Shown here one piece after another: positions 4,001-43,864 of a stretch of 62,838 nucleotides of DNA. Numbering within the stretch: the stretch's first letter is position 1; each line of letters opens with the position of its first letter. The stretch comes from Alphaproteobacteria bacterium (GTDB lineage Bacteria; Pseudomonadota; Alphaproteobacteria; RF32; CAG-239). Location: the NCBI GenBank assembly GCA_017939155.1, contig JAGAZZ010000014.1, positions 1 through 62,838 of the forward strand, given 5' to 3'. The notes beneath the pieces are model-generated. The model was given only the letters and a program-made list of their open reading frames with translations. It was not told the DNA's origin and made no database searches. Both the position numbers and the translations under genes were made by a program.

Positions 4001-6305
4001 TAAAATAAAAGCAAACGCCGAAGCTTTTGCAGATAGGTATCTCGTGATGGCAAAAGCGAAGCAAGAAGAAATTGAAAGTAAAAACAAAGCATTTGAGGAC
4101 TTTCTTGAAACAGCGGATGGAACAAGTCAATCAAACCGTATGAAAGATACAACACATAAAAAATGTTGTGTTCCGCCAGGGTATTGCTTTAAAAAATGTG
4201 ATGCCAACTTTACAACCGATAATCTCCAAACAACTCTTGAGGAAATAACATATCATGGAGCAGATTTAGAAACTGCAATAAAATACGGTACATCTGCAAA
4301 TAAAGAAAGTTTGAATAGTGTCTGGTTTAAGGATATGGATGCGGCTTCCGTAATATCTAATTTACAAAAGATTAGCGTTCCTGCTACTTTTGTCACCGAC
4401 GGCACGGTGATGGGACTGGCTAACGGACCGCAAAAGCTGACAGATATAGCTGACGCGATTATAAAAGGCGATGTTAAAGAAGAAGTTTTAAATTTAGCCG
4501 CTAACACAATCTCTAACTATATTAGACAAGCTGATAAAATTATAGAAGAGGAGGTCAATGCCGCGGTTGATGAGGTTAATGCTATGGCAGAGAGCTTAGG
4601 TGTACTTGATACAAGTAAAATAAGCGCTGAGCAGGCTGCATATCTATCAAACTCAGAAAGTTATAAGAGCATTGTCGCTGAGCATGAAGCCTTAATAAAA
4701 GCCTTAAAAAAACCTACGGCAAAAAATGAGAACGCTTTGCTTAAGTCCGGAGTGAACTTGACAGAGATTTTTGGTATTCCCGGCAGTATATCTACGGATG
4801 ATGAATATTTTGTCGGTCTGCCTGCCCGCGGAAATAATTATATCGGTCTAGACCCTGAAAAGGATAAAAATGCCGGACGAGATTATAATGCGCCTAGAAA
4901 GCCGTTATTGAATTTGCCGCCGGTTCGTGAGGTGTTCTATTATAGCGCGCTTGACTATGACGATACGCCGAAAGAAAACGGTAAACCGGCAATTCCGTAT
5001 TTGTTAAATTTCAAATATCCTGATAGCGATAAAATAGAGTATCTTCCTGAAATTTGGAGATATTTGTTGGCTCGTCCGAATTTGCGTTCGGATAGAAAAT
5101 ACCAAAAGACATTTTTTGAGCGTTCGCTTAGCAGCAATGACTATGGAAAATTGCTTGGAGCACCAAACGGAGGAAGCTCAGAAAATTACCGTACAATAAT
5201 CGGTCGTGGAGGAATTTATCCGTGTAAAATGAGTAATGGCTCGTATGTGGATATTTCCGGTGATGGTGACGATGTATCAAAAATAACATTTAAGAGCAGA
5301 AATTCATTGCCGGAAGGTGTCGGGGCTGTACCGTCCTGTCAGGAAATTGCTTTGAACAATGTTTACGGAACAAATTCCTGCTATGTTTACAATAAAGGGA
5401 AAAAAGGTGGAATATGTCATTTGATGGCAGACCATGGCAAACCGGATGCGGAAGATTCTCAGCCTTCGCTAAGTAAAACAACAAGAGGTATGTATAAAAA
5501 TTACAGCGAATTGGGGCAGTTCCTTAACGAAAATTTGAAATATCGTCCATTGCATGAAAAAATATTGACATATCAACTGGACAGCAAACATGATAAAAAT
5601 GACATCGAGCGCCGAAAGGCAGAAACCGCAACATTTAAACATAATGTGATGGGTTCTTTCTTGGAAGCGGTCAATATGGAACATGGAGCTAAGGAAAACC
5701 TTGATAACATTGAAAATGATATAGAAAAAATGTTAATAAGTCTATGTGAGCAACTTCATGAAGCAAATTGGACAATCACAGATGATGAAAAGGAAACCGC
5801 AGAGGTCTGTGCCGCTCACATTTTAGATAATGGCGGTTTAGCTGAAAATGGTGAAGATACAAAGTATGGCGAAACCGGAGAATATGGTGCCGATTACAGC
5901 AATTTCGAAGGGATAAACTGTCCAAGCGATAAAACGCTTTATGAAAATATCTTTTGTAATCTGAAAGCGTTGAAAGAAGAAGCGCTGGCAAACGCTAAAA
6001 ATGGATATTCGTATGAAGATAAAGACACCGGAGAAAAGGTCAAAGTAGCTGGTTTTAATGAAGTTAAGGGAGAAGCCGATTCGCGTATTCAGGAACGTAT
6101 AGATAACATACAAAAATATATCGATATGTTAGAAACAGACAATAAGGAAGTTGTCCTTCTTACGCCAAATCTGTCCAAAGACACATTGAAAGATAAAATT
6201 CCCGAAGAGAAGACTAATCGTGCACTGGCGCGTATTTCCGAAGATGAAGGAATTAAGGCTATGGATAACCAAAGTCAGTCAGTTGCATACTGTCCGGTAT
6301 ATTAA
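1002..6305 (+). CDS. Very large exported Cys-containing coiled-coil protein of the T4SS locus (1767 aa)
   Basis: A perfect AAGGAGG sits just before the ATG. Residues 1-27 form a Sec signal peptide (basic start, hydrophobic core, AKA cleavage motif), so the mature protein is periplasmic or secreted. Cysteines are scattered through the mature part, many in closely spaced pairs, as expected for disulfide-bonded exported proteins. Two strongly charged coiled-coil stretches lie at about residues 800-890 and 965-1040. No transmembrane segment is obvious after the signal peptide. I recognise no domain. It ends 11 bases before virB8, so it belongs to the same transcription unit; a structural or substrate role in the secretion machine is inference from position only. 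Confidence 0.85.
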   Translation: MKKISKMLKGLIVGALIISASVNEAKAFFLTPPMPWDIELDIPANAIKMLTANPQTLYRQIQTHFSELNTNKLQAIKKARGLKLSDLKNILPNSETGGKVKTPMKKEIKGNGELEIEENDVNEEHYFNAYYKLFMTYPPEKELTISVGEKTVKIDYPVFQTAYKHKATQYRQDVIIDTYLTGRLTEDYLAAVDKTLQRLDLCLNRDWDDVGLTEEKCTFFGLHMVKVKNNKEAPTDPDGKNAGQLGAAMNAYVVTTVYDRLMRIVEDLTATEAIYRAAKQLDKADPIMPKKESNAEKYLNKTYQFAYSQSYDHNHAQSLLNPYNRLEECKNGGDNCPDKNEDKAELVNMDNTEVLRKLKPIDDMLDSAVQFHNLKNQMPEYKAQFRKYQKAKEVHARALKTVAESDRCVQDFLSRHGGGAAWGASSPVNDYASRSGISRELIETYQEAINETIIGTTRECEGFYATANSCPEGYVLDTKENCSYEDENGNLVVEQRLHPCVLETVAIDMEKYENIPAIPNDYEEAGSQQLQSMTTNNTSYDNADYLLESGMADKIDLENRKKAEQAWRIGSDKVMELTESGLLKFDPWNDQQNLQQEYLHNKYRNIRMIIKSVDQGVQSYKIAAGMARRSAYTGDEPINILIQTVTECASLEDARNMARERYCAGYPKTVTINVTDDEGETTTENRTLTCSVTKNDNTGIITTKKDEKIDDYTITTKTITEKQVVSKSKTCPYKGTRRRSLPETNQENKCAGKWDFSVSTLVKQYFPTVLGGCAQNPEEQEKRVYNKAHDLGRKVAMDYFNDVLEIQLEGEQEIKDFIKSYNDNLENDKKELQSAKDSMKMYNQQIDEATKEKNRLYQEVQRTEQRTSDIEKEYKDIEQRLNSELITEKDVCALKIRQLLLKNEEGCINKVNYEVNATCPQECSEKAEIREKQCQQLNTFKCETYIRDVLYVEKDEPKEAELTFVIPSLAKEKIAEQNPKIESAKAAQNEVKDKVKQLEDKIKANAEAFADRYLVMAKAKQEEIESKNKAFEDFLETADGTSQSNRMKDTTHKKCCVPPGYCFKKCDANFTTDNLQTTLEEITYHGADLETAIKYGTSANKESLNSVWFKDMDAASVISNLQKISVPATFVTDGTVMGLANGPQKLTDIADAIIKGDVKEEVLNLAANTISNYIRQADKIIEEEVNAAVDEVNAMAESLGVLDTSKISAEQAAYLSNSESYKSIVAEHEALIKALKKPTAKNENALLKSGVNLTEIFGIPGSISTDDEYFVGLPARGNNYIGLDPEKDKNAGRDYNAPRKPLLNLPPVREVFYYSALDYDDTPKENGKPAIPYLLNFKYPDSDKIEYLPEIWRYLLARPNLRSDRKYQKTFFERSLSSNDYGKLLGAPNGGSSENYRTIIGRGGIYPCKMSNGSYVDISGDGDDVSKITFKSRNSLPEGVGAVPSCQEIALNNVYGTNSCYVYNKGKKGGICHLMADHGKPDAEDSQPSLSKTTRGMYKNYSELGQFLNENLKYRPLHEKILTYQLDSKHDKNDIERRKAETATFKHNVMGSFLEAVNMEHGAKENLDNIENDIEKMLISLCEQLHEANWTITDDEKETAEVCAAHILDNGGLAENGEDTKYGETGEYGADYSNFEGINCPSDKTLYENIFCNLKALKEEALANAKNGYSYEDKDTGEKVKVAGFNEVKGEADSRIQERIDNIQKYIDMLETDNKEVVLLTPNLSKDTLKDKIPEEKTNRALARISEDEGIKAMDNQSQSVAYCPVY

Positions 6306-6316
6306 GAGGAAATAAA

Positions 6317-7072
6317 ATGGTAAACCTGCCAAATCAAAAAATTCTTCGTATTCAAAATAAAAATGTAAAAAGCGAACAGCCGGCGTTTATTACGGAAGAT
6401 GTCGTTGAGGTCAGGCGCGCCAAACTGATATATTATAAATGGATTAGCCGACTGATGGCGGTATTGGCAACACTATCGCTTTTATACGGAGTTTGTGCAA
6501 CATTGGCTATTTTGAAACTTATCCCGAATATTATGTTTGACCCGCAGATATTTGTCGAGCTTTCAGATTCTTCTTCACTCGTAAAAAGGGAATATATCAA
6601 CCGGCGTATGGAATCTCGGGAAAAAATTATGGTTAATTTTATTAAGCAATATGTGGAGTTGCGCAATACCTACATAAAAGATGATGCAGAGATGAAAAAG
6701 CGCTGGTTGTGGGGAGGTTTGGTTTCGTATCTGTCAACTTATGAAGTTTATAAAAAATTTGAAAAACAATTTCCTAAAGTTATAGAGGAATTAAGAGAAA
6801 ACCAAGCCAGCCGCTCGGTGGAAATCCTGTCTGTTACGCGTTCCGGCGGTGAACAAAGCTTTATATGGAAAGTGGAATTTAAAACCTATGATTATAGTTA
6901 CAACATCAATAGCCAGGTTGTATCAGAGACAAAACCAAATGTTGTTGAGCGCTATTGGACGGTAAATATAAGATGCCAAACAGATGAATATCGCCGTACG
7001 GCATATCGCCGTTTGCTTAATCCGCTCGGTTTTGTCGTAACAGATTATTTCCAAAGCGAAATCGAAAATTAA
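6317..7072 (+). CDS. virB8: T4SS inner-membrane protein VirB8 (first copy)
   Basis: VirB8 is a bitopic inner-membrane scaffold of type IV secretion systems with an NTF2-like periplasmic domain. This 251-aa protein has a cytoplasmic tail of ~45 residues, one membrane helix (about 47-70), and a periplasmic domain ending in the VirB8 hallmark NPLGF-V-x-x-Y. Length matches the family. An AGAGGA sequence precedes the ATG, and it starts 11 bases after the giant exported gene. A second, diverged virB8 lies 354 bases downstream. Two VirB8 paralogues in one locus are known from Rickettsiales-type systems; here they probably form distinct or mixed assemblies, which is inference. Confidence 0.93.
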   Translation: MVNLPNQKILRIQNKNVKSEQPAFITEDVVEVRRAKLIYYKWISRLMAVLATLSLLYGVCATLAILKLIPNIMFDPQIFVELSDSSSLVKREYINRRMESREKIMVNFIKQYVELRNTYIKDDAEMKKRWLWGGLVSYLSTYEVYKKFEKQFPKVIEELRENQASRSVEILSVTRSGGEQSFIWKVEFKTYDYSYNINSQVVSETKPNVVERYWTVNIRCQTDEYRRTAYRRLLNPLGFVVTDYFQSEIEN

Positions 7073-7214: not shown

Positions 7215-7406
7215 ATGATGTATAAAGCATTAATTGTTGTTTTTACAGTTTTTATATTAGCCGCCTGTAATTTTCTCGGAAGCTATTATGAACCGGAACC
7301 GGTTGGTATCGGTAAAGATATCTATGAATTGAAACTTTCTCCTTGTGCCTGCATAGAAGTTGAACTTCCCAAGACCTTGCCTGATTGGTTTAAAGCATTA
7401 GGGTAG
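7215..7406 (+). CDS. virB7: VirB7-like outer-membrane lipoprotein
   Basis: This 63-aa protein starts with a lipoprotein signal peptide ending in the lipobox LAAC, so mature Cys18 should be lipidated. In T4SSs the small lipoprotein VirB7 anchors VirB9 in the outer-membrane core complex, and VirB7 proteins are poorly conserved and short. Its size, lipobox and position three genes before virB9/virB10 support the call, although sequence homology cannot be shown. The start has two adjacent ATG codons (7215 and 7218) behind an AGAGGA ribosome site. The mature part has a CAC motif that could form a disulfide. Confidence 0.72.
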   Translation: MMYKALIVVFTVFILAACNFLGSYYEPEPVGIGKDIYELKLSPCACIEVELPKTLPDWFKALG

Positions 7407-7426: not shown

Positions 7427-8188
7427 ATGGTAGAGCAAATATCGTCAAACAATACCAAAAAGGCCTTGCTTGAAGGTAACGGTGCTAAAGCAGCGCCACA
7501 GCCTCAATCTGTGCGTATGGTGAAAAGACCTCAGGCGGATATTGTGGTTGAAAACTCAACTGAAAAACGGTATTTGTGGACGGCTAGAGCTTTTGCAATT
7601 GTTTTTGCAGTTAGCTTATGTTGTAATCTGATATTGACGTATGTAATCATGTCAACGATTCCTTTGTATCGCGTGGAGCCTTATTTATTCAGTTTTGCTG
7701 ATAAAAAAGAACAAATTTACAGAATAGAGCCGGTCAGACGGATTTATGAATATAAATATCTGACGGAAATCTTTGTACGCGAGTATGTATTGTTGCGTAA
7801 TACTTTCGTTAATGATATTGAAGAGATGAAAAGTCGCTGGGGTGAAAATGGAACATTAAGAGAAATGTCAAGTGATTCCATTTATACGCAGTTTCGTAAG
7901 GAACACGCAGACCCTGTTATTGAGCAGATACGCAAGTACAATGTGACACGGAATATTAAAATTTTATCTGTTACCGAGGTCGGTCGCGGTAAAAATAATG
8001 GTATTTGGTGGGAGGTCGAATTTCGCGTTGAAGATATGTCACCGGAATTTGAAACGCCACGCGTAAGTATTTGGGTTGTGCAGTTGCAAATACGCTATAA
8101 AGCTAAACGGGTCAAATTTGGTGAAAGATTAAAAAATCCTCTGGGCTTTACTGTTACAAATTACAAACAGAGCAAACGCGATAAATAA
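7427..8188 (+). CDS. virB8: T4SS inner-membrane protein VirB8 (second copy)
   Basis: A 253-aa VirB8 paralogue with a cytoplasmic tail of ~48 residues, one membrane helix (about 52-75) and a periplasmic domain ending in NPLGFTVTNY. It shares the layout of the upstream copy (hydrophobic helix, then a LRNT-F/Y segment, then the NPLGF motif) but is well diverged, so the duplication is old. It sits directly between the VirB7-like lipoprotein and virB9, the usual place for virB8, and may be the main functional copy. The start ATG follows AAGGAA. Confidence 0.93.
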   Translation: MVEQISSNNTKKALLEGNGAKAAPQPQSVRMVKRPQADIVVENSTEKRYLWTARAFAIVFAVSLCCNLILTYVIMSTIPLYRVEPYLFSFADKKEQIYRIEPVRRIYEYKYLTEIFVREYVLLRNTFVNDIEEMKSRWGENGTLREMSSDSIYTQFRKEHADPVIEQIRKYNVTRNIKILSVTEVGRGKNNGIWWEVEFRVEDMSPEFETPRVSIWVVQLQIRYKAKRVKFGERLKNPLGFTVTNYKQSKRDK

Positions 8189-8202
8189 ATTTGGGGTATG
8201 AT

Positions 8203-10065
8203 ATGAGCAAGCTTATAAATAGAATGTCTGTATTAATATTAGCAGGAATGTTGGCGGGAACACCAGCTAAGGCACAGGTCACCAAAAACAGTTTGGACCA
8301 AAATGCAGACCAATCTCAAGGAAATTATGCCGCAACTAATTTAAATTATTTAGGTAGCGGGGCGCTCGGTATGATGCAAAATGCCTGGAAAGACCCTTTA
8401 CAACACATGGGAGAAGGACAAACCCGCCCGGGATATACAAAATATTATTGGACGCCGGAATTGGTTTTGCCTGTTAGAATACGCGAAGGAATGTATACGC
8501 TAATTAATTTTCCAAACTGGGAAATTATCGAAAATGTTTATTTAGGAGACGGACAGTCATTTAATGCAGAAATTCAAGGACCTTCAAGTTTGATGGTATA
8601 CCCGGAAGCATCTCAGTTCGTTGGTGTTGATACAAATATGATTGTCTTTGGTCGTTCAGGGAATAAATATGTTTTTTATGTTCAAAGCGAAACGGTTAAT
8701 ACAGATAGGATTACCAACGCAATTATTGATATTGAAGTGGTAAAAAATCGCAAAGGCGTTGGGACAAACGGTTCTGCTGTTATCGGTGGTGGTAGAGTGA
8801 GCGCCGCGGATGGTGTATCAGCAGGAACAAGTGCTGATGCAACCTATACGCGTGATTTGCAAAAAGAAGATTGGATTGAGAAAATCCCCGTAGACCCGAC
8901 AAAATTCCGCTTTGATATTGAAGTTTATGTTCCAAATCCTGATGATATTATCATTGCACCTGAACGTGTTTGGCGGGATAACATCTTTACCTATATTGAT
9001 TTGGGTGAAAAGGCTTTAACCGCTATTCAGCGCCCGATTGTGACATTGATTGTGGAACGGACGGAAACACCGGTTGGTTTTCGCGCCGCCGGTCCGAATA
9101 ATCGTCTGATTATAGTCGAAGGAATGGGCGATATGGTCTTAAGAAGTGGTAAGCGTATTGTTTGCTTAAAATTGCGCCGTGCCGATTCTGATGGGCTTGA
9201 AAATACAGTCTATGCCAAAACAAACGAATGGGATTTGCAAAATGCACATGCGTCTACTCCGACGGATGAAAGTCATAATGGTGGACGATATGAGGATGTT
9301 TATAGTTCTTCATCAGGAAATGCACAGCCTCAGCCCTCTGAAAATAAACAAAATCAAAATACTGGAGCTCAAGATGGTCTGGATTTCTTTAGTGATAATC
9401 TCTTTTCATCACCAAATACCGGAACACAGCAAAATAACATACCTTCAATAGATACTTTGCCAAAAGTAACTCCTGTGGTGGCACCGCAAACAAATGCAAC
9501 ATCATCACAACAGCCGGAGGTAACCGGACAGTATGATATAAATGTCGGAAATTCTGAATTAATAGCCCCGGATTATAATAACGAACCATTAGATACAACG
9601 GTGACATATCAAAAGGATAAAATTTCAGAAAAAACTGAAAATATAGCCCAAAAGGCACCGCAAATAGGTAATTCTTCAAATAATTCAAGTCCGGTTTTAA
9701 TCAGCCCTAAAGAAGGAAGCGATGTTCAGCCATCTGCAAGTTCATCTCAAGCTGAAGCCTTTTTAAAAGAGTTTCGTAATACTCAAACTTTAAATAATGA
9801 AGCCGATGGCAATATCTCAATAGAATTGGGAACGGATGAAAATGTTAATAATTTAGAGAAGTTATGGAACAATATTTCTAAACGTTATTCTGCCGCATTA
9901 GGTAAATACGAACCGTTTTATTCAGTTGATGCTCCGGCAGACGGACAAGGAAAAGATGTTTTTCACTTGCGTGTCGGTCCGGTAAAATCAATAGAAGAAG
10001 GGGATGATGTTTGCAGTAGACTAGGGCGTAACGGAATTTTTTGCAGCGTGGTTAGGATACAATGA
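8203..10065 (+). CDS. virB9: VirB9 with C-terminal SPOR domain
   Basis: VirB9 forms the periplasmic and outer-membrane part of the T4SS core complex. Start chosen at ATG 8203 (GGGG just upstream) rather than an in-frame TTG at 8191; the protein then begins with a clean signal peptide ending in AKA at about residue 25. The VirB9/CagX domain runs from about 75 to 335. It is followed by ~200 residues of Asn/Gln/Ser-rich linker and, from about 535 to the end, a SPOR-type domain (an LRVGP core, then a final strand with CSVV). SPOR domains bind peptidoglycan stripped of stem peptides. Normal VirB9 is near 290 aa; this one has 620. The stop overlaps the next start (ATGA). Confidence 0.92.
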   Translation: MSKLINRMSVLILAGMLAGTPAKAQVTKNSLDQNADQSQGNYAATNLNYLGSGALGMMQNAWKDPLQHMGEGQTRPGYTKYYWTPELVLPVRIREGMYTLINFPNWEIIENVYLGDGQSFNAEIQGPSSLMVYPEASQFVGVDTNMIVFGRSGNKYVFYVQSETVNTDRITNAIIDIEVVKNRKGVGTNGSAVIGGGRVSAADGVSAGTSADATYTRDLQKEDWIEKIPVDPTKFRFDIEVYVPNPDDIIIAPERVWRDNIFTYIDLGEKALTAIQRPIVTLIVERTETPVGFRAAGPNNRLIIVEGMGDMVLRSGKRIVCLKLRRADSDGLENTVYAKTNEWDLQNAHASTPTDESHNGGRYEDVYSSSSGNAQPQPSENKQNQNTGAQDGLDFFSDNLFSSPNTGTQQNNIPSIDTLPKVTPVVAPQTNATSSQQPEVTGQYDINVGNSELIAPDYNNEPLDTTVTYQKDKISEKTENIAQKAPQIGNSSNNSSPVLISPKEGSDVQPSASSSQAEAFLKEFRNTQTLNNEADGNISIELGTDENVNNLEKLWNNISKRYSAALGKYEPFYSVDAPADGQGKDVFHLRVGPVKSIEEGDDVCSRLGRNGIFCSVVRIQ

Positions 10066-13000
10066 ACGAAAACACCCGGTTTGAAGAATATGAAAAAAAG
10101 ACTAGAAGACTGATAATCATAATCGGTGTTATCTTTGGTATGCTATTTCTTTTCGGGGTGTTGATACTATCATCTGATGAGGACGAATACAATCCGGAAG
10201 AAGCTACTCCCGAATATGAAAGAACAGAAAGTATTGTTCCTGAAATAGAAAATTCTGATGAAGAGCTAATCAAAACAGAAGATGGTATTTTTTCCGAACG
10301 TAAAAAACCGATAACCGTTATGCCGGCGCAAATCAATATGAATGAATTTGTGTTAGGGGTTGATACACAAAATCAAACGGTTCTAACCATCGGTACAGAT
10401 GGAAGCGACAGTATTCATATTGAGCGGGTCGAGCTTGTTGAAGAAACGGATGATGGTTTTGAATTTCGTGATAAATGTAAAAATCGCGAACTTCGAGGAG
10501 ATGAAACCTGTAATGTATTAATTTCATGGGTGCCGCACCTGCCGGGAAATGTACAAAATAATTTTAAGATTATTTGGTATGAAACAAGATTAGGGCGTGA
10601 AAATGCAAAATCTGAAGAAGTCAGTATCCGTGGCAAAGCCGTTTATCCGGAAGACAGTCGCCAAATTTGTAAATCTGGTTCAGATTGCGCTATCAGTGGC
10701 GGCGGTATCGGCGCGCACCGCTTGGCTATCGGTCCTAATGGGGAGATTATCGGTTATATAGATGAAGCTGGCAATGTTTATGACCAGGACGGAAATCTAA
10801 TAGGAACCGTCAATGAAGATGGGTTAATTGTTGATGCCGATGGTAATATAATCGGTGTCGCGCAGAATATGCGTCTAGCCTATGATAAAGATGGCAATAT
10901 TATAGGGTATGTGAAAACAGATGGAACTGTTGTCGGATTGCAAGGTGAAACCATTGGTCGGGCGTTGCCGGATGGTACCATTGTAGACAAAGACGGCAAT
11001 ATAATCGGCAAAGCCGTGGAGGCCGGTTTTGTATATGATATTAATGGTAAGATTATCGGACGGGTAAATCCGGACGGGACGGTTGTCGATATTAATGACC
11101 CAAATAAGATTATCGGTCATTTAAATGAAAACGGAGAAGTAGTTGACGAAAACGGTAATATTATCGGTAAGGTAACTTCTTCAGGCAATATCGTTGTTGA
11201 CGAAAATGGTAATGTTTTGGGCGTGGTAATGCCTGACAATAGTGTTGTTGACAAGGATGGCAATGTTATTGGGTATGTTGATGAAGATGGCAATGTATAT
11301 CGCCTGTCAAATGAAAAAATAGGAACAAATGGCGATAGCCGTAAAATTGTTTATGACAAAGATGGTAAAGCTATCGGTTATATTGATGAAAATGGTGAAG
11401 TTGTTAAATTTTCACCAGATAAAAATAAAGGAACAGTCATTGGTAAGGTGGGAACCAGTCAACATCTAGCCTATGACAAAGATGGCAATGTGATAGGCTA
11501 TATCGATAAAGATGGCAATGTGCGCGATTTTAATGGCAATATCATCGGTAAAGTAGATAAGGATGGAAATATTATTGATAAAGATGGCAATATTATAGGT
11601 AAAGCCGGAGCTTTTCAGCGTTTAGCCTTAGATAAAGATGGCAATGTTATCGGCTATATTGATGATGAAGGTCGAGTTTTTGATGAAAACGGGCGGCAGA
11701 TAGGCTATGTGGATGAAAACGGCAACATTATTGGTTTGGACGATTCGTCTGCCGGAATAGACCAACGTCGCTTAGCTTATGATGAAAACGGCAACGTTAT
11801 TGGCTATATTGATGAAGATGGCAATGTATATGATTTTGAAGGAAATTTAATCGGAAAAGTTAATGATAAAGGCGAAATAATTGATAAAAATGGTCAAAAA
11901 ATAGGCAGAGCCGGCGGATATGCAGCCGTAGCGCTGGATAAAAATGGCAATGTTATCGGTTATATTGATGAACATGGTCGCGTTATCGGAAAAGATGGAA
12001 AATTAATCGGCTATGTTGACAAAGATGGTAATGTGATAGGTGTTAACGGCAAAATTATTGGAAAAGCCGGAATTTCTCGCCCTATAGCACTTGATAATGA
12101 TAAAAAATTTATGGGATATGTTGAAAATGATAACAGAGTCATAGCCTGTGGCGGTGCAGTCATTGGAACGGCTGATAAAAATGGTAATATTTTCGATAAA
12201 AATAAGAAAAAAATCGGTACCGTGGGCGAATTAAGAGAATTGGCTTTTGGTGATAAAGACGTTTTCATCGGCTATATAGATGATAAAAAACGGGTCATTG
12301 ACTGCACCGGTAAGGTTATTGGTATAGTTGATAAGGATGGCAATATTATCGCCTCAAGTGATGAGATTATCGGTAGTGTTGGCAATTTTAGGCGTTTGGC
12401 TTATGACAAAGAAGACAATGTTATCGGTTATGTCACTAAAGATAATACTGTCAAAGATTGTGATGAAAATCTGATAGGCAAAATGCTCTCAGATTTAACT
12501 ATTGTTGACAAGTTGGGCAAAGTTATTGGTCGTGCAGGAAAATTTACCAAGGTGGCATTAGATAAAAATGGAAAATTTTTAGGCTATGTTTCTTCTAATA
12601 ATCGTGTTTTAGGATGCGGACGCAAACTTGTCGGCTTTATTGATAAAAACGGGAATGTAATAAGAGCTGGTAATGAAATAATCGGCAGAACCTGTATACG
12701 CAAAAAAATAGCACTGGACAATACCGGAAAAGTTATGGGGTATCTTGACAACAAAGATATTGTTAAAGATTTTAATGATAAAATTATCGGTAAAGAAAAA
12801 AATGGCAATATAACCAACTCTAAAAATATTTTAATAGGAAAGTTAGGCTTTCCTCATAATGTTGTGAAGCGCAATGATAACAAAATTATCGGTTTTGCAG
12901 ATGAAAAAAACTATGTTCGCGGTGATAAAGAAAAAATAATCGGTATAATTGATAATAAAGGAAATGTTTTAGCTGTTCTAAGCAATGTCATCGGTAGGCA

Positions 13001-16000
13001 GGATAAAAATTCAAAAATCTTGCGCAATCGCGGTAATGAGATTATCGGCGAGCTTAAAGAGAATAACTTTGCCTATGATAAAAACAATAAATTAATCGGT
13101 TACGTTAATGACAAAGGAGAAGTCATCGCCTCAGGCGAAATAATTTGTACCGCTTGTAAAAGTGTTAGACTGGCTTATGATAAAAATGGTAATGTCATAG
13201 GCTATGTGGATGAAAACGGTAATGTCATAGACCAAAACGGTAATATCATCGGTAAAGTCGATAAAGACGGAAATGTTATTGATAAAGATGGGAATATTAT
13301 TGGAAGAGTCGGCGCCGCTAAAAATTTGGTTTACGATGAAAACGGCAATGTTATCGGTTATGTCGATGATGATGGAAGCGTTAAAGATTTTAATGGCAAT
13401 ATAATCGGTTATGTTGATGAAAACGGCAATGTGATAAAAAATACCGGAGAAATTATCGGTTCTGTCGGTAAAACCGGACGTTTGGCGTATGATAAAGATG
13501 GCAATGTGATAGGTTATGTTGATGAAAACGGCAATGTTTATGATTTTAATGGCAATCTGATTGGTAAAGTGGATGAAAATGGCAATATCATTGATAAAGA
13601 TGGTAATATAATAGGTAAAGTTGGAGATGAGTTTGTTGATTTGGCTGTTGATGAAAACGGTAATGTCATCGGCTATATCGGTAAAGATGGAAAAGTTTAT
13701 AAAGAAAATGGAGAACTGGTGGGCTTTGTTGATGATGAGGGAAATGTTATCGGTATCAGTGGCGAGATATTGGGCAAAGCTGATGTTAGCAAGCGTTTGG
13801 CTTATGACGAGAATGGCAATGTAATAGGTTATATAGATGATGACGGAACGGTGCGTGATTTTGACGGTAATGTCATTGGCTATTTAGGCGAAGATGGAAC
13901 AATCCATGACGTTAACGGCAATATTATCGGCAAAGCCGGTGATTATGCTAGAGTTGTTGTCGATGAAAATGGTAATATTATCGGTTATGTCGATGAAAAT
14001 GGTCACGTTATCGGAAATGATGGAAAAATTATAGGAATTGTTGACAAAGACGGTACGGTATATGCCGGAACCGGAGAGATAATCGGTCGAGCCGCTTCCA
14101 AAGATGTCGGAAAATTGCGTGTGATAAATAGAAAAGCTATTTTAGATAAAGATGGCAATATCATCGGTTATATTGATGAAAACGGTATTCCAAGAGATTT
14201 GAATGGCAATGTCATGGGGACTTTGCGAGAAGATGGAACCATTGTTGATGAAAACGGCAACATTATCGGCTATGTCGGACAAGATACCGAATTTACCGTA
14301 GATGAAAACGGTAAAGTTATCGGTAGAGTCGGGGAATACTCAAATTTAGCGGTAGATAACAATGGTAACGTCATCGGTTATGTCGGCAAAGATGGTAAAG
14401 TTTATAATGCCGATGGAGTAGTAATCGGTTTTCTTGATGAAAATGGTAATGTTATAACTTCTCGCGGAGTAAGAATAGGCGCGGTTATCAAAAAAGATTT
14501 AATAGCAGTTTCTCCGAACGGATACAGCCTGGGCATAGTTAATAATAAAGGCGAAGTTGTAAATGCCAAAGAAGAAATTATCGGTAAAGTATTACCTGAC
14601 GGTTTAATTAAAGCCACCGAAAATGAAGCAATTATCGGCAAAGCAGTTATCGGCGGTATGGCAGTAGGCTGGGGATGCAAACAATATGGATTTGTTGATA
14701 GAAATGCACGTGTAATTAAAAACGGTACTGATACCGGGTATCGTATGCTTTTTGATAGAAGTATCGTTGACAAAGACGGTACAACGGTTGGTGATGTTGT
14801 CAAAATTGGTCTTGTACGGGATAGCAAATGTAATATCATCGGTAAAGCCGATTATAATGGTATTGTACGCAACGAAACAGGTGAATACGTTGGTTGCTCA
14901 AATCCTAATGGTGAAATTGTCAATAGCGAAGGAAAACTGATTGGTAAGGTTTATGAGCCGGGTTATGCTTTGTATTATAACGGAGAAATGATGGGAATAC
15001 TTGGCCCTGATGGAATAATAAAATCAGGCAACACGGCTGTCGGTTGCGCTAATCTTGAAGGTGAAGTCCTTAATCGTGACGGCTTTATCATCGGGCAGGT
15101 TATGGATAAAACGCAAGCATTTGATACCAAAGGAAACTATATCAATGCTTTGTCACGCTATGGTTATGACAGTGCCACCGTGATTCCTAATACAGAAATT
15201 TTGTTTAATCACTTATTGGTAGATTCCAAGAAGCAAGTACAGGGTATCATTTTATCAGAAAAAAATATCGTAATTGATGCTAATGGCAAAATTACCGGGC
15301 ACTTGTTTGCTGATGGCTGGGTGTATAATAAAAAAGGCATTGCCGTAGACAAGATTAATGCAGATGGCAGGTCTTTTTATGCTAAAAAAACCGGAAGTTT
15401 TCTTAATAAAGGCAATGTGGTTGATTTTTATGGGGATTCTGTTGGTTTTGTTAATGATAACGCTGATGTCATAAATATAAAAGGTGAAATTTTAGGGCAT
15501 ATTGATGCCAAAGGGCGGATGTTTGATGCTTCAGGTAAATATAAAGGCGGTGTTATCAAAACCGGTGTCGGTATCGGGTATGATGGCTCATACTTGGGCT
15601 ATGTCAACAAAAGTGGCAAAGTTATCAATGCTGATGGTAATGTCAACGGTCTTGTGAGCTCAGACGGTCATGTCCTGGATGTCAATAAGCAGATTGTCGG
15701 CGAGGTTGTGAGTGAAGATTTAATCGTGGATGTTTTAGGCAATACGCAAGGTTATCTGAATGCACTCGGAGATATTATAGATACAGAAAATAATGTTGTG
15801 ACAACGATACTACCGGGAGGGACATCAAATAAAAATTATAGTTTGATTAAAAAAGGTGTTGTTTTAAATTATTCCGGGCAAATTATTGGTCAGGTATCTG
15901 CTGATGGTAGTATCTTATCACCAGAGAATACACGCATAGGAAAAATTTTGGGAACAGGTCAAGCTGTGGATGATAAAGGGATATTGATAGGTGAAATTGC

Positions 16001-16340
16001 AGATATGGATATTGTCATTAACCAAGAAGATAAATTTGTCGGGTATGTGAATGCTGAGGGAAAAGTGCTTAATGATGAGGCATCCGTTATAGGAAAAGTA
16101 ATTTCTGCAAATTTAGTTGTAGATAACAATGGAAAAATTATGGGACATGCCTATAAAATCGGTGCTAATATACTGGGTAATGATGGAAAGTTTTTAGGGC
16201 GTTTGGCTCCGGATGGAAGTGTGTTAAGTCCGACAAATGCAAAAATAGGCTACTTGCGCAGCAATGGGTCGTATGTAAACTCTAAAAATAAAGTTTCCGG
16301 ATATGTCTTAGATGAAGTCGCTCAAAATCGGAGGAACTGA
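10062..16340 (+). CDS. Giant membrane-anchored repeat protein, N-terminal half of a split VirB10
   Basis: 2092 aa, starting inside the virB9 stop (ATGA overlap). Residues 1-15 are cytoplasmic, 16-38 a membrane helix, and 39-75 acidic, which is the layout of a VirB10 N-terminus. Residues ~85-205 look like an Ig/ASH-type beta-sandwich with a C-x11-C pair. From ~222 to the end the protein is a tandem array of a 17-residue unit such as GEIIGYIDEAGNVYDQD, about 110 copies. It has no VirB10 C-terminal domain; that lies in the next gene. CagY and DotG are known giant repeat-bearing VirB10 proteins, but as single chains. I infer that this is the inner-membrane half of a two-chain VirB10. The ribosome site of the next gene overlaps its 3' end. 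Confidence 0.88.
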   Translation: MNENTRFEEYEKKTRRLIIIIGVIFGMLFLFGVLILSSDEDEYNPEEATPEYERTESIVPEIENSDEELIKTEDGIFSERKKPITVMPAQINMNEFVLGVDTQNQTVLTIGTDGSDSIHIERVELVEETDDGFEFRDKCKNRELRGDETCNVLISWVPHLPGNVQNNFKIIWYETRLGRENAKSEEVSIRGKAVYPEDSRQICKSGSDCAISGGGIGAHRLAIGPNGEIIGYIDEAGNVYDQDGNLIGTVNEDGLIVDADGNIIGVAQNMRLAYDKDGNIIGYVKTDGTVVGLQGETIGRALPDGTIVDKDGNIIGKAVEAGFVYDINGKIIGRVNPDGTVVDINDPNKIIGHLNENGEVVDENGNIIGKVTSSGNIVVDENGNVLGVVMPDNSVVDKDGNVIGYVDEDGNVYRLSNEKIGTNGDSRKIVYDKDGKAIGYIDENGEVVKFSPDKNKGTVIGKVGTSQHLAYDKDGNVIGYIDKDGNVRDFNGNIIGKVDKDGNIIDKDGNIIGKAGAFQRLALDKDGNVIGYIDDEGRVFDENGRQIGYVDENGNIIGLDDSSAGIDQRRLAYDENGNVIGYIDEDGNVYDFEGNLIGKVNDKGEIIDKNGQKIGRAGGYAAVALDKNGNVIGYIDEHGRVIGKDGKLIGYVDKDGNVIGVNGKIIGKAGISRPIALDNDKKFMGYVENDNRVIACGGAVIGTADKNGNIFDKNKKKIGTVGELRELAFGDKDVFIGYIDDKKRVIDCTGKVIGIVDKDGNIIASSDEIIGSVGNFRRLAYDKEDNVIGYVTKDNTVKDCDENLIGKMLSDLTIVDKLGKVIGRAGKFTKVALDKNGKFLGYVSSNNRVLGCGRKLVGFIDKNGNVIRAGNEIIGRTCIRKKIALDNTGKVMGYLDNKDIVKDFNDKIIGKEKNGNITNSKNILIGKLGFPHNVVKRNDNKIIGFADEKNYVRGDKEKIIGIIDNKGNVLAVLSNVIGRQDKNSKILRNRGNEIIGELKENNFAYDKNNKLIGYVNDKGEVIASGEIICTACKSVRLAYDKNGNVIGYVDENGNVIDQNGNIIGKVDKDGNVIDKDGNIIGRVGAAKNLVYDENGNVIGYVDDDGSVKDFNGNIIGYVDENGNVIKNTGEIIGSVGKTGRLAYDKDGNVIGYVDENGNVYDFNGNLIGKVDENGNIIDKDGNIIGKVGDEFVDLAVDENGNVIGYIGKDGKVYKENGELVGFVDDEGNVIGISGEILGKADVSKRLAYDENGNVIGYIDDDGTVRDFDGNVIGYLGEDGTIHDVNGNIIGKAGDYARVVVDENGNIIGYVDENGHVIGNDGKIIGIVDKDGTVYAGTGEIIGRAASKDVGKLRVINRKAILDKDGNIIGYIDENGIPRDLNGNVMGTLREDGTIVDENGNIIGYVGQDTEFTVDENGKVIGRVGEYSNLAVDNNGNVIGYVGKDGKVYNADGVVIGFLDENGNVITSRGVRIGAVIKKDLIAVSPNGYSLGIVNNKGEVVNAKEEIIGKVLPDGLIKATENEAIIGKAVIGGMAVGWGCKQYGFVDRNARVIKNGTDTGYRMLFDRSIVDKDGTTVGDVVKIGLVRDSKCNIIGKADYNGIVRNETGEYVGCSNPNGEIVNSEGKLIGKVYEPGYALYYNGEMMGILGPDGIIKSGNTAVGCANLEGEVLNRDGFIIGQVMDKTQAFDTKGNYINALSRYGYDSATVIPNTEILFNHLLVDSKKQVQGIILSEKNIVIDANGKITGHLFADGWVYNKKGIAVDKINADGRSFYAKKTGSFLNKGNVVDFYGDSVGFVNDNADVINIKGEILGHIDAKGRMFDASGKYKGGVIKTGVGIGYDGSYLGYVNKSGKVINADGNVNGLVSSDGHVLDVNKQIVGEVVSEDLIVDVLGNTQGYLNALGDIIDTENNVVTTILPGGTSNKNYSLIKKGVVLNYSGQIIGQVSADGSILSPENTRIGKILGTGQAVDDKGILIGEIADMDIVINQEDKFVGYVNAEGKVLNDEASVIGKVISANLVVDNNGKIMGHAYKIGANILGNDGKFLGRLAPDGSVLSPTNAKIGYLRSNGSYVNSKNKVSGYVLDEVAQNRRN
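10720..16290 (+). repeat. Tandem 51-bp (17-aa) coding repeat array with higher-order periods
   Basis: The unit encodes a pattern close to G-N-I-I-G-x-V-D-x-D-G-x-V-x-D-x-D. Units are grouped in threes (about 52 aa, 156 bp), each trio beginning with LAYDKD- or LALDKN-like residues. Trios alternate between an A type (with a DFNG second unit) and a B type (GKDG-like), giving a ~104-aa (312-bp) period. Blocks at about 11340-12075 and 13160-14460 are nearly regular; 12080-13150 and everything after about 14460 are degenerate. The pattern recalls the Gly/Asp-rich DUF3659-type repeats from memory; this needs a profile search. Confidence 0.9.
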
Positions 16341-16341
16341 T

Positions 16342-19300
16342 TTGCACATTAAAAACTTAAAAATAAATCAATTGATTTTAGTCTTGTGGATGGCATTCTT
16401 CTTTTGTTCTAATGCTAAAGCTGCAGACATCAGCGCTCTTGATTTTAATGGCGGTTTAATAGGAAAAGTTATTCCTGATGGCTCTGTAATCAATTTTGAA
16501 AATGAACTAATCGGTAATATAACCGCAGATGGTTTTGTTTTGAATGATAAAAAAGAACTAATTGGTGGAATTATTCCGCAAGGAATAGCGGTTTCCGTTA
16601 ATAATAGCATTTTGGGCAAAGTAAACAATGACGGTTCAGTAACGGGAGTGAATGATAGCCTTATAGGTAAGGTCTTGCCGACAGGTTTGATTGTTAATAA
16701 TAATTTTGACGTTATCGGAGCAGTAGTTTCTCCCGGTTTGGCATATAATGACAAAGGCGAGATAATCGGCAGAGTTTCCGGTGATGGTAAATTTTATAAT
16801 CTTTCAGGAGAAGCAACCGGTTTTGTGAGCGCTTCAGGTTATGTCTATATCTCAGCTAATGCAGATAGAAAAATTACTCTCGCAGGAAAACTAATCCCTT
16901 CAAAAATGATTGTATCATCTTTAGGCAAATTTTTAGGAAGTATCGGTCCGGATGGAAAAGTTATTGATTTAAAAAAGAATGTCATCGGGGCAATTCGGGC
17001 TAATGGTTTTGCATATAATGCCGACGGAGAAGCCGTTGGTCATACGGTAGAAAGTGGTTATGCTTTTAACTTTGATGGAAGCTATTTAGGCGTCGTAAGC
17101 TATAATGGCGAAGTTATTGATAAAGGTGAGGTGGTAGCCGTAACAACTTTTGATAATCGTGTGGTTAATAAAGATGGCAGCGTTATCGGGTTTAGCATAA
17201 ATATAGCAGCAACGGTCAATGATTTGAACGGAAAATTTTTAGGATATGTCTTGCCGGGAGGCTCTGTTGTCAAAGGGCGCACGGTCGTTGGAAAGATAGG
17301 AGCTTCAGGCAATGTTATTAATACCAAAGGTCAAATTATCGGATTGATAAACAGCAGGGGACCTATTTATGATTATTTAGGAGAACTAAGTGCTAACGCA
17401 GCTGTTAATGGTGCCGTTATGTCTTTAGACGGTATAGAAATAGGCTATATGCAAAAAGATAGAGCTTTTGACCGTAAACAAAAAGAAATAGGTTTGCAAC
17501 CGGGGATTCTATTAAATTTTGATAATTCCAATAGTTTTATCGGAATGAATGGTATCGGTTCAGTATTAAATCATAACAAAAAAGATTATAAAATCTCTCC
17601 GTATGGCTATATTTTTGATGAAACAAATGAGCTTTTAGGCAGAAATTATAAATTTTCGGAAGTTTATGCTCCGGATGGAAAAGTTTTAGCTAATATTACC
17701 AGTACAGGGCGTCTTGACAGAAATTCATCTGCGCCGCAAACAGCAAAATTAACTTCTTCTGGGTTGGCAATAGATGCAAATAATAATTTGCTTGGTAAAA
17801 CAATGGCAGGAATGTATGTGACGGATTTTATGGGTGAAAGTATCGGTAGCCTGAACCCGTCAAATTTAGTTGTCGATTTGAAAAATGAAATATCAGCTAA
17901 AGTGCTTCCTGATGGAAATGTTGTATCCTTAAATCAAAAACCGTTGGCAAATAGGGCGCGTATGGGAAATGCTACAGTTAGCATCAGTATCAATGGTGAC
18001 TATTTAGGAGCCAATATGTATGACGGCAATGTTAAAAACACAAATGAAATAATTGGCAGGGTAAGCTCAAATCAATTTGTTGTTGATAATATGGGAGGCA
18101 TATACGGAAAAGCGCTTGCATTTGGAGCTGTTGTCGATTCGTCTTGTAAATTTTTAGGTGTTGTCTCTGAAACTGGTGAGGCAAGAACTTCAAAAGGAGC
18201 CTATTTGGGAATGGTTTTAGCTAATAACCAGGTAGTAAACGAGGCTGAAGAAGTCATCGGTTATGTTGTAAATCCTAGAGCCATTAACAATCAAACTGGT
18301 GAAGTAATCGGTACGCAAACACCTTTGGGAACAGTCTTGAATTATAAAAATCAAAATTTAGGTTGTCAGGATATTCACCAAAAAATAAGAAATGCTCAAA
18401 ATGAAATTATTGGTTCAATTATTCCAAACACAACAGTAATGGATTTCAATAATAATATCATAGGGGCTACGGATTTTACCGGAAATATTATAGATTTATC
18501 AGGAGCAAATATCGGTTATGTCGGCACAGACGGCAGTGCATATTCCAAAACAGGAGAAAGTATTGGCGTTTTGTTTGAATATAATGTGGCTTTTGATGAT
18601 AAAAATATTTATTTAGGTCGGGTTAATTCTGAAGGTAAAATTATTTCAGACACCAAAGAAATTATCGGAACAGTGAAATATGATGGTAGCGTAGAAACAA
18701 AAGACAATAAAAAAGGATATGCTCTTTATGACTTATACGTTTATGATAATGAAGGAAAAACAGCCGGATATATTGCTCAAAACGGTCGTGTATACAGCAT
18801 AATGGGAGATATGAAAGGCGTTTCTTATCAAGGTTTTGTCTTAGATAAAAAACAAAATCTTATCGCCAGAGGAAACAGGGATTATAATATCTTAAATGAT
18901 AAACACGAAATTATCGGTTATTTGGAGCTTGATGGTCGAGTTATTAATGCTAAAAATATAGAGGTTGGTAAGTTAAGCGAAAATGGTGAAATTTTAGATG
19001 CGAACGGTACCGTAATAGCTAAAGCAAACCCATTGCAATATTATCGAAAAATCCAAAAAGAAGAAACTAGCGGTAGAGAAGAACAACTCCAAACAGGCAT
19101 ATCATCCCCGGAAGAAACGGAAGAGCAAAATGTCTCAGGCAAAACAGTGGGTATTAGTATTACACCCGGTGAAAATACACCTAAAGGCAGAGATAGCTCA
19201 GACGGGAATACGCCAAAAGGTGATACACCAATTGAACAAAGCGATGAAACGCAGTCATCTGTAATAAATAAAACTCCTGTCGATGCTGCAGGTAATGAAA

Positions 19301-20499
19301 TCGGAGCAGAAAACACCACACCGCAAGAGCAACCTGATAGGAAAAAAACAGGCAATAGCAGTAGCGAATGGGGGAAAACTGTTGGCAGAGGAATCACCAT
19401 TTCTCCTTACATTCCAGGAGATGAACCAACTAACGTCGGTCCTGGCGGTGGTATAGGTCCCGGCGGGCGTTACAATCCGCGTCGTGCGGCGATATTGCAA
19501 CAATTGCAGAATAATAGGCGTCGCTCGCTTTCTGGCAAAGTTATATCAAATTCAGCAGATACGGCGGCATATACCGGTTGGCAGGATGACTGGGGGTTAA
19601 ACCGTTCTGTATCTACCTTGCGTGTAGATATGAGTAATATGATTACGGCCGATAAACCGATACCGGCGGTGCTGGCTCGTTCTTTAATATCTTTAGGTGA
19701 AGCTCCTGTTACAGCAATTGTTGAACGAAATATATATGGCGATGCAGGCAGAAATATCATTATTCCGGCTGGAAGTCGTATTATAGGCGGATTGCAGGAA
19801 GCTGATGAAACAAGTCGTTTTGATGGAACAAGCGGCGGCGTAAAAATGGAAATCACTTGGGATAGAATAATCAGACCGGATGGTATTGCTTTTCGTATTT
19901 TAAGTGCGCAAACCGGCGATGCGCAAGGTCGCGGCGGTGGAGCACTCGGTTATGTTGATGAACAACTGGTGAAAAAATATACTTTGCCGATTTTTGGTAC
20001 CATGGCAACATCAGCAATTGCTTATATGATGGCGACCAATGAAGACGCAACAGGTGAGGTTGAAAACTCAAAGCAACAAGCTGCCTCAGATGCTAGGTCT
20101 AATTTCTTAGAGAAAATGGATGAAATCTTAGACCAGATATTAGCGAGTAAATCTCAAATTCAAGCTGTCACATTTGTTCCGGCCGGAACAAGAATTATTA
20201 TTTATCCGATGACAGACCTATGGTTAAGAACAACCAAAGATATCGAAAAAAATGTTGCTGGGTTGCGTGATGACCGTGTCAAAGATGTTTTAATTGATGA
20301 AAGCGATGTCGAAGAAGATAATACAAAACAGACGAAGGTTCAAGGCAATAATAATAACGCAAATAATAATGCACCGGCGAACAATAATCAACAACAAGGG
20401 GGAGGTGTGGCAATACCGCCACCGGCAGCAGACGGTTCAGGTATTTCGGTTCCCACAGAAGAAGACGAGGAAGATGGCGAAATTGATATAGCGTTTTAG
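16342..20499 (+). CDS. virB10: Secreted repeat protein with VirB10/TrbI C-terminal domain (split VirB10, distal half)
   Basis: I chose TTG 16342 as the start: GGAGG at 16330-16334 is 7 bases upstream and the protein then opens with a signal peptide (hydrophobic core, then NAKA before AD). An in-frame ATG at 16312 lacks a ribosome site and would mask the signal. Of the 1385 residues, ~28-900 carry degenerate 17-residue repeats of the same family as the upstream gene, ~903-1073 form a Thr/Pro/Ser/Glu-rich linker, ~1086-1306 match the VirB10/TrbI domain that builds the outer-membrane channel, and the tail is Asn/Gln-rich. The protein lacks the usual N-terminal VirB10 membrane helix, which is in the upstream gene. 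Confidence 0.92.
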   Translation: MHIKNLKINQLILVLWMAFFFCSNAKAADISALDFNGGLIGKVIPDGSVINFENELIGNITADGFVLNDKKELIGGIIPQGIAVSVNNSILGKVNNDGSVTGVNDSLIGKVLPTGLIVNNNFDVIGAVVSPGLAYNDKGEIIGRVSGDGKFYNLSGEATGFVSASGYVYISANADRKITLAGKLIPSKMIVSSLGKFLGSIGPDGKVIDLKKNVIGAIRANGFAYNADGEAVGHTVESGYAFNFDGSYLGVVSYNGEVIDKGEVVAVTTFDNRVVNKDGSVIGFSINIAATVNDLNGKFLGYVLPGGSVVKGRTVVGKIGASGNVINTKGQIIGLINSRGPIYDYLGELSANAAVNGAVMSLDGIEIGYMQKDRAFDRKQKEIGLQPGILLNFDNSNSFIGMNGIGSVLNHNKKDYKISPYGYIFDETNELLGRNYKFSEVYAPDGKVLANITSTGRLDRNSSAPQTAKLTSSGLAIDANNNLLGKTMAGMYVTDFMGESIGSLNPSNLVVDLKNEISAKVLPDGNVVSLNQKPLANRARMGNATVSISINGDYLGANMYDGNVKNTNEIIGRVSSNQFVVDNMGGIYGKALAFGAVVDSSCKFLGVVSETGEARTSKGAYLGMVLANNQVVNEAEEVIGYVVNPRAINNQTGEVIGTQTPLGTVLNYKNQNLGCQDIHQKIRNAQNEIIGSIIPNTTVMDFNNNIIGATDFTGNIIDLSGANIGYVGTDGSAYSKTGESIGVLFEYNVAFDDKNIYLGRVNSEGKIISDTKEIIGTVKYDGSVETKDNKKGYALYDLYVYDNEGKTAGYIAQNGRVYSIMGDMKGVSYQGFVLDKKQNLIARGNRDYNILNDKHEIIGYLELDGRVINAKNIEVGKLSENGEILDANGTVIAKANPLQYYRKIQKEETSGREEQLQTGISSPEETEEQNVSGKTVGISITPGENTPKGRDSSDGNTPKGDTPIEQSDETQSSVINKTPVDAAGNEIGAENTTPQEQPDRKKTGNSSSEWGKTVGRGITISPYIPGDEPTNVGPGGGIGPGGRYNPRRAAILQQLQNNRRRSLSGKVISNSADTAAYTGWQDDWGLNRSVSTLRVDMSNMITADKPIPAVLARSLISLGEAPVTAIVERNIYGDAGRNIIIPAGSRIIGGLQEADETSRFDGTSGGVKMEITWDRIIRPDGIAFRILSAQTGDAQGRGGGALGYVDEQLVKKYTLPIFGTMATSAIAYMMATNEDATGEVENSKQQAASDARSNFLEKMDEILDQILASKSQIQAVTFVPAGTRIIIYPMTDLWLRTTKDIEKNVAGLRDDRVKDVLIDESDVEEDNTKQTKVQGNNNNANNNAPANNNQQQGGGVAIPPPAADGSGISVPTEEDEEDGEIDIAF
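16425..19030 (+). repeat. Degenerate 17-aa coding repeats in the VirB10 distal gene
   Basis: Units such as ELIGNITADGFVLNDKK recur with the same 17-residue spacing as in the preceding gene, keeping the I/L-G pair and the D-G turn but with little DNA-level identity. The array is thus older or less homogenised than the regular blocks upstream. It stops where the Thr/Pro-rich linker begins. Confidence 0.8.
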
Positions 20500-43200: not shown

Positions 43201-43823
43201 ACAACAGAGTTATTTATAAAATTTCCTTGTATAGTCCCAATATTAGCCTGGTTGGAAATAGACCCTCTACCAGAATTCCACCCGTTTTCAGTAACTTTGT
43301 TATTAATAAAATCGCCAACGACTTTATCTATATTGCCATTACCTTTGTTACGAAGAGCGCTACCGGGATAATCTCCCACGTTAACATTGTTTTGGTTGTC
43401 AATAAATTCTGCTTTAAGTTCATGAACGGTTTGGGTGTTTGTATATTGTCCTTCGTTATTATTAGAATTTTGGCTGGCAAAAATAGCGGTAATGTCTTTG
43501 CCGTCAGGAGTTTCCGTTTCCTGTGCGCCAGAGGTTAACCCCGGTTTTTGTTCATATTGATAATGTTGTGCATCTCCAAGCTCAATCACATCAACTGAAA
43601 TAGTCTTTTCATTGCCATCTTTATCTTGATAAGTATAAGTCTCTGTCTTTTTTTCTGTGCTATAAATAGAAAAGCCGTTGGTTAAAGTGCTGTCTTCAAC
43701 GTCTTGTACTGTATAAGCTGCTTCATCTTTAAGCATTGGTTCAAAACCAGCTAAAACGGGTGAAACAAACATTGTTGTTGTAAGTAAAAATGCTTGAAAG
43801 GCACAAATATTTCTTAAGTTCAT
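40224..43823 (-). CDS. Autotransporter adhesin-like surface protein
   Basis: A type V secreted protein of 1199 aa. Start chosen at ATG 43823 (AGGAGT upstream), giving a signal peptide (MNLRN start, cleavage after VLA near residue 26); an upstream in-frame ATG would hide it. The passenger (about 140-640) is made of short beta-helix repeats with the recurring GGAIYN motif. A Pro/Glu-rich linker spans about 861-894, and the last ~275 residues are the beta-barrel, ending in the aromatic C-terminal residue (YLF) needed for outer-membrane insertion. Receptor unknown. It lies behind an unusual inverted-repeat leader that could control expression. Confidence 0.93.
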   Translation of the reverse strand: MNLRNICAFQAFLLTTTMFVSPVLAGFEPMLKDEAAYTVQDVEDSTLTNGFSIYSTEKKTETYTYQDKDGNEKTISVDVIELGDAQHYQYEQKPGLTSGAQETETPDGKDITAIFASQNSNNNEGQYTNTQTVHELKAEFIDNQNNVNVGDYPGSALRNKGNGNIDKVVGDFINNKVTENGWNSGRGSISNQANIGTIQGNFINNSVVSNRNMPILGAAIANGTPTAHIRTIENSVFVGNNLSSQKWVGGGAISNNNSAKIDLIRNSFFSENNAETIKNPSDPNAGRGGAIYNAMNDSKIGEISGSTFIKNKSNGGGAIYNEQNASIQKIKDNVFIENKATLGNGGAIYNGATMGDIENATFVKNTAATSGGAIYTHDTINNINGNFIENTANQRGSAIDNYEKNAKINGTISGNFIRNGGNARSVIDNSDGAYINKISANFIDNEKAAIYNSGGTINEISDSYFTGDIGVININNSKLGTINNTVFAEHNVSAQDSPSVIYNSAGSFIDTIDAVFYKNTGIIGIGIYNTGSIGSICGIFEENISRNGTAGAIYNSGGIDSISGNFYKNVAIAGGAIHNASSIASISGIFEENVSQQGPGALYNTGNIGLISASFIKNSAENYHGGAIYSTTDLTVAATDKDIEFSGNTDSTGSNAIYLDGNEGMHLELSADSGKKLVVNDGIDSKNAFDLSVGKTYMGGEVVLNNEVKNVAHIDVTGSTLSLGENASLGNNSDTLPTVKLTGAELNLANNKIGETHIGSLNSIRSDLRVDVDLENKQADMLYVHGNVEGQTNVILNLGEDASLTEALQLAFVQSENDMTGNADSFSIYRMMRSPFDVDVAFVQTGENKNQWLLDMEGQAPEPEPDPEPEPEPTPDPEPEPTPDPEPEQKPTPKPLHRLTPEALTYLSLPSVVIEQSRYVSRNVLDKADQNAFLAESDKPKTWVDVQGRSANYDKKLDIDADIWGIDAGATLGGDASNSYGVFASYRKGNYDIGHKFGDYYSKTSSDVDVSSYLLGGYYTKKYNNLRLAADVFAGRQSLDVKTHDGVTTKTSANELGFGARAYGFAYQNNAFGVKPFAGLSYHYYDIKSLKDDFAKKAAYDDLSHLELELGTQFTYGFESGLRAYLTPSLIQNITSGDDVKITNLDKVNSAYEDDLLVKTEFGIGYDFSESFNAGAFINYTYGANYDAISAGLDVKYLF
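41140..41245 (-). repeat. Pro-Glu/Pro-Asp coding repeat in the autotransporter linker
   Basis: Short direct repeats encode alternating PEPEP and PTPDPEPEP residues between passenger and barrel. The near-identical DNA units are prone to slippage, so linker length may differ between strains. Confidence 0.8.
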
Positions 43824-43832
43824 AGTAACTCC

Positions 43833-43864
43833 TGATGAAAAAAAAGGGTCGTTTTTTTTCATCA
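43833..43864. promoter_or_regulatory. Perfect 13-bp hairpin in the autotransporter leader
   Basis: TGATGAAAAAAAA (43833-43845) and TTTTTTTTCATCA (43852-43864) form a perfect stem around GGGTCG. The ribosome site (AGGAGT on the minus strand, 43833-43828) abuts the stem base, 4-5 bases before the start codon, so folding could affect translation. Confidence 0.7.

Follow-up and report, generated by a model that had tools for sequence, protein, structure and literature searches.

VirB10 normally spans both bacterial membranes as one chain, and the question raised by this locus is whether it can instead be made as two separate proteins. The locus lies in a window of 62,838 nucleotides (the whole stretch of DNA analysed, contig JAGAZZ010000014.1 of assembly GCA_017939155.1, here C3) from an Alphaproteobacteria bacterium (GTDB lineage Alphaproteobacteria; RF32; CAG-239) whose genome is 1.78 Mb in size and 100% complete. 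A sequence-only reading of this DNA had proposed that the inner- and outer-membrane halves of VirB10 are encoded by two adjacent giant genes, both carrying 17-residue repeats, and that the halves meet through their matched repeats to give an adjustable or detachable bridge across the envelope. The features of the locus are collected in Table 1, where p1 and p2 denote the upstream and downstream proteins.

Table 1. Features of the split VirB10 locus and its surroundings (positions are those of the window)
Position	Strand	Feature	Basis
1002..6305		1767-aa protein with an N-terminal hydrophobic stretch, at the head of the operon	No Pfam match; diverging fast among relatives (39% to 26% identity)
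6317..7072	+	VirB8 copy 1	PF04335, 4e-15
7215..7406	+	Small lipoprotein gene (lipobox LAAC), previously unlisted, between the two virB8 genes	VirB7-like by sequence and position only
7427..8188	+	VirB8 copy 2	PF04335, 8.4e-18
8191..10065	+	VirB9 with C-terminal SPOR domain	CagX 2.2e-12; SPOR 3e-5
10062..16340	+	p1, inferred inner-membrane half of VirB10 (2092 aa)	N-terminus homologous to fused VirB10s (E 1e-48 to 1e-15); no TrbI match; Pfam Bflower_2 1e-137
10110..10169	+	p1 transmembrane helix (residues 17-36), preceded by a 16-residue basic cytoplasmic tail	Hydropathy 3.0; AlphaFold helix 6-37
10311..10643	+	p1 predicted ASH/PapD-like beta-sandwich (residues 84-194)	AlphaFold model; Foldseek to 2e6j (TMt 0.72, rmsd 2.9) and 6fvi
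10701..16298	+	p1 17-residue repeat array (residues 214-2079)	96 detected units, shuffled mean 1.4; Bflower_2
10701..13478		Extra p1 array of about 930 aa, an expansion in the window's genus	52-residue (17+17+18) higher-order period
13479..16337	+	p1 core array (residues about 1140-2092), colinear with the whole array of the shorter p1s	blastp of short p1s, 38-44% identity
16329..16334	+	Shine-Dalgarno CGGAGG for p2, inside p1's last codons (N-R-R-N-stop)	CGG AGG AAY dominates in 78 distinct junctions
16342..20499	+	p2, inferred exported outer-membrane half of VirB10 (likelier TTG start, 1385 aa)	Signal peptide, repeats, TrbI domain
16342..16425	+	p2 signal peptide region	Hydrophobic stretch and AKA-A site; 91 of 97 related p2 have an AxA-like site
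16426..19038	+	p2 repeat array (871 aa)	864-875 aa in 59 of 60 related sequences; AlphaFold pLDDT 91.7, pTM 0.90
19642..20226	+	TrbI/VirB10 C-terminal domain	PF03743, 96 bits, only copy in the genome
20575..21555	+	VirB11 ATPase	TIGR02788, 3.2e-47
41161..41244		Tandem repeat of 24 bases (3.5 copies)	Within the minus-strand ORF 40224-43865

The observation itself is confirmed, since p1 has a VirB10-type cytoplasmic tail and membrane helix without a TrbI domain, while p2 has a Sec-type signal peptide (...FFFCSNAKA|ADISALDF, cleavage site inferred from sequence) and the complete TrbI/VirB10 domain. One correction applies to p2, whose frame is open from 16312; the likelier start is the TTG at 16342, 7 nt after CGGAGG, and 16312-16341 overlaps p1 and is probably not translated as p2. 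The TrbI domain of p2 scored 92-96 bits against PF03743 (cut-off 35; 5e-26), the ComB10 structure 2bhv was matched at 1e-17, and the ComB10 profile NF038092 at 6e-32. However, p2 falls below the NCBIfam equivalog cut-offs, with 110.8 of 300 for NF038092 and 79.8 of 220 for NF038091. The repeats of both proteins match the same Pfam families (Bflower_2, Bflower and DUF3659; 450.8 bits for p1 and 151.2 bits for p2, against a curated cut-off of 38 for the beta-flower families PF21785/PF21784) and the same 17-column matrix. They are far above chance, with 40 detected units in p2 against a mean of 0.6 in shuffled copies (for p1 see Table 1) and a modal spacing of 17, and in much of p1 the spacing runs 17+17+18 = 52.

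Could the split be an artefact, that is, a sequencing frameshift, a decayed gene, or programmed frameshifting or read-through that yields one chain? The sequence-only reading had named related genomes with one fused gene and evidence of a sequencing frameshift at 16312-16342, or a complete separate virB10 elsewhere in the genome, as grounds for rejection, and neither was found to overturn the split: the genome holds no second virB10, fused genes exist only in other families, and no frameshift explains the cut. Relatives were collected by genome searches and by a scan of named genomes, which are mostly gut metagenome genomes labelled Alphaproteobacteria, one of them Azospirillum sp. CAG:239; one record (locus L110) titled Lactobacillaceae bacterium holds this alphaproteobacterial secretion system at 54% identity, so its title is probably a mislabel. 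In every locus of the order with p2's start in view the two genes abut at the same place, namely in 105 loci with the common junction (some genomes were fetched twice; 78 junctions are distinct) plus genome G033 (G and L numbers denote our genomes and loci). In the 78 distinct junctions p2 lies in all three reading frames relative to p1 (41, 22 and 15), which rules out a sequencing frameshift or recoding. A frameshift-like break of a fused gene does exist in G351 (near 9297 on the coding strand of L086, with an overlap of 4 bases, due either to assembly error or to decay), but it has no signal peptide. Given the conserved signal peptide of p2 and the three-frame distribution, we consider an artefact or recoding refuted or at best extremely unlikely.

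The codons at the junction point the same way. The last codons of p1 are nearly always AAY CGG AGG AAY stop, and the arginine codons CGT and CGC are never used there, while upstream codons vary freely, so these bases are the ribosome-binding site of p2. Where p2's start lies 18-19 bases downstream, behind a purine-rich site of its own, the codons have relaxed to AGA AGA or CGA AGA (L144 and L130). The strict NRRN ending of p1 was first taken as a protein motif, but this codon usage shows that it is largely the ribosome-binding site, whereas the preceding GYxLxEV varies freely in its codons and is kept at the protein level.

The two halves also go together across genomes. Among 153 genomes of the order, the N-terminal profile of p1 hits 117 and the TrbI region of p2 hits 121; both are found in 116, neither in 31 (several of them 100% complete) and one in 6. 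Of these six, G012 and G175 are seen to lie at contig ends, G149 and G062 are inferred to do so from their coordinates, and G123 and G166 lie beside runs of N; open frames of 25213 and 24540 aa in the latter two genomes were themselves such runs and not giant proteins.

Were the two genes ever one? In four other families the slot between VirB9 and VirB11 holds a single gene with the N-terminus of p1, the same repeats and the C-terminus of p2, of 2831 aa in G054, 1273 in G035, 2348 in G224, 2149 in G434, 2521 in G340, 2216 in G442 and 2193 in G519, and the VirB9s next to the fused VirB10s show an ending like the SPOR domain seen here. The 23 split sequences of the order form one clade (82/95) among fused ones; in this tree the badly extracted row L092 and the long-branched row L088 were not used for placement. 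A profile of p1 plus p2 run against the fused chains projected the cut to residue 841, mid-array, in G442 and G519, but was ambiguous in the other fused chains because repeats align to one another. The array of the shorter p1s (about 920 aa) and that of p2 together make about 1790 aa, which is in the size range of most fused arrays (about 1440-2230 aa). G201, from another family (f51), is also split with a signal peptide at the homologous p2 N-terminus, although its p2 is interrupted by a short duplicated stretch (about 9060-9125 of L088, by assembly error or decay); its place in the tree is unsure, so the data fit one fission event or two. An alternative is that a membrane-anchored repeat protein and a VirB10 were never one gene and independently picked up or exchanged the same repeats, as beta-flower repeats occur in many bacterial proteins (PMC10584680) and repeats recombine easily. 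This is disfavoured and appears very improbable, because the fused relatives hold the TM-ASH N-terminus of p1 and the TrbI end of p2 on one chain in the same operon slot.

The p2 array was predicted with high confidence as an unbroken run of beta-hairpins, in a model read without the coordinates that would show whether it forms the closed shallow barrel of 4-6 hairpins of beta-flower repeats. Foldseek and VIA-align gave no global match for it among the PDB entries listed (TM about 0.1; best Z 4.5 over 49 residues), and a local likeness to Rhs/YD-repeat shells was judged to reflect repeated hairpins and not kinship. The model of p1 residues 1-640 gives a membrane helix, the ASH/PapD-like sandwich and hairpin repeats, but it is only moderate and the relative placement of its domains is uncertain (pTM 0.35).

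We interpret the two genes, with fairly good confidence, as the halves of one ancestral giant VirB10 (cytoplasmic tail, membrane helix, ASH/PapD-like domain, a long array of 17-residue beta-hairpin repeats and TrbI domain) that was cut within its repeat array, the downstream half having gained a Shine-Dalgarno site and a signal peptide. The analysis establishes a conserved two-gene VirB10 derived from a one-gene form, through the two parts, their shared repeats, single copy, synteny, fixed split, fused relatives and near-perfect co-occurrence; the workings of the pair are inferred. In this view translational coupling would supply both halves together, p1 would stay in the inner membrane and take the cytoplasmic and inner-membrane role of VirB10 (contacts with VirB4, VirB6 and VirD4, and presumably the sensing of inner-membrane ATPases), and p2 would be exported and assemble with VirB9 into the outer-membrane ring, following the roles described for the corresponding VirB10 regions (PMC11294453, PMC12624023). 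The conserved C-terminal end of p1 and N-terminal end of p2 would then dock where the cut was made, re-forming the bridge without a covalent link, although there is no direct evidence of contact between the halves.

This docking rests on conservation that rises from both sides to a peak at the junction (30 sequences under 75% identity): the first 68 residues of p2 are more conserved than any other window of its array, and the last 53 residues of p1 before NRRN are in the top 6-7%. Such a pattern fits end-to-end docking at the former break better than general pairing along the arrays. The interpretation in the sequence-only reading is therefore partly supported: separate genes with separate membrane and export signals hold, but it is not shown that the halves meet, adjustability is inferred only from the variable length of p1 (1068-2734 aa), and detachability has no evidence.

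It is also possible, though we consider it unlikely, that fission was not followed by re-joining, so that p2 alone does the outer-membrane job of VirB10 and p1 became an independent inner-membrane-anchored periplasmic scaffold contacting VirB8, VirB9 or the wall. VirB10-like proteins of 530-612 aa in other families of the class (L035, L036, L089, L090 and L091) carry a lipobox (LTAC, LASC, LAAC, LGAC, VAAC) instead of an inner-membrane helix, those of L035 and L089 hitting the profile of p1's ASH-like domain, so a physical bridge may not be essential. In addition, p1 length varies widely while the p2 array is fixed, and the SPOR domain of VirB9 is of a kind known to bind the wall. Strict co-occurrence and adjacency, the embedded Shine-Dalgarno site and the conservation on both sides of the cut nevertheless suggest that the two ends still work together. 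A more speculative and rather doubtful extension of the docking model is that splitting lets each half follow the symmetry of its own membrane platform, p1 in the 6- or 12-fold number of the inner-membrane complex and p2 in the 14- to 16-fold number of the outer-membrane ring, with reversible end-to-end docking that couples and uncouples the two membranes and the variable array of p1 setting the reach across the envelope.

The secretion system itself looks complete. Besides the genes in the window, three VirB2-like genes and VirB4 are found on contig C20, VirD4 on C37 and weak VirB6 candidates on C23 of the genome; at L177 (7210-8510) three VirB2-like pilin genes lie in a row beside virB4. Compared with VirB10/TrwE of R388 (type IVA secretion; regions Cyto, IM, Arches, I-layer and O-layer described in PMC11294453), the split pair shares the cytoplasmic tail, inner-membrane helix, periplasmic span, C-terminal domain assigned to the outer-membrane layer and a position next to VirB9 and VirB11, but R388 uses one chain with a linear peptide as its N-terminal region, where here the span is large repeat arrays, predicted to be folded. 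CagY of Helicobacter pylori is a giant VirB10 with a length-variable middle repeat region (PMC10706595), but it is a single chain with short helical repeat motifs, whereas the repeats here are predicted to be beta-hairpins on two chains. DotG/IcmE of Legionella is a large single-chain VirB10 homologue with internal repeats of a presumably different sequence. The beta-flower proteins (PF21784, PF21785) share the hairpin units with a [DNEQ]xxG tip (PMC10584680), but those described are single barrels of 8-12 strands (96 residues in the type example), against runs of about 50-110 units in one chain here. The fused giant VirB10s share the domains, repeats and operon position and differ in being single chains of 1273-2831 aa.

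All VirB10 homologues tabulated in a 2025 review (TrwE, TraB, TrbI, TraO, CagY and DotG; PMC12624023) are listed as single proteins, and no described split VirB10 was found in the literature searched, which left out most subscription papers. H. pylori ComB10 is listed under two accessions (PMC2653234). This may reflect a strain-specific frameshift. The pair by inference works like VirB10 but carries its two ends on two polypeptides, and so counts as a variant and not as a standard member of VirB10/TrbI. VirB10 is described as the key component that runs from cytoplasm to outer membrane and carries signals between them (PMC12624023), and its copy number differs from layer to layer (14, 16, 12) in a way that one chain has to accommodate (PMC11294453). 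A natural two-chain VirB10, fixed at the loci of a whole order of gut bacteria wherever the start of p2 is in view, is a ready-made test of whether the covalent link is needed and offers separable halves for structure and interaction work.
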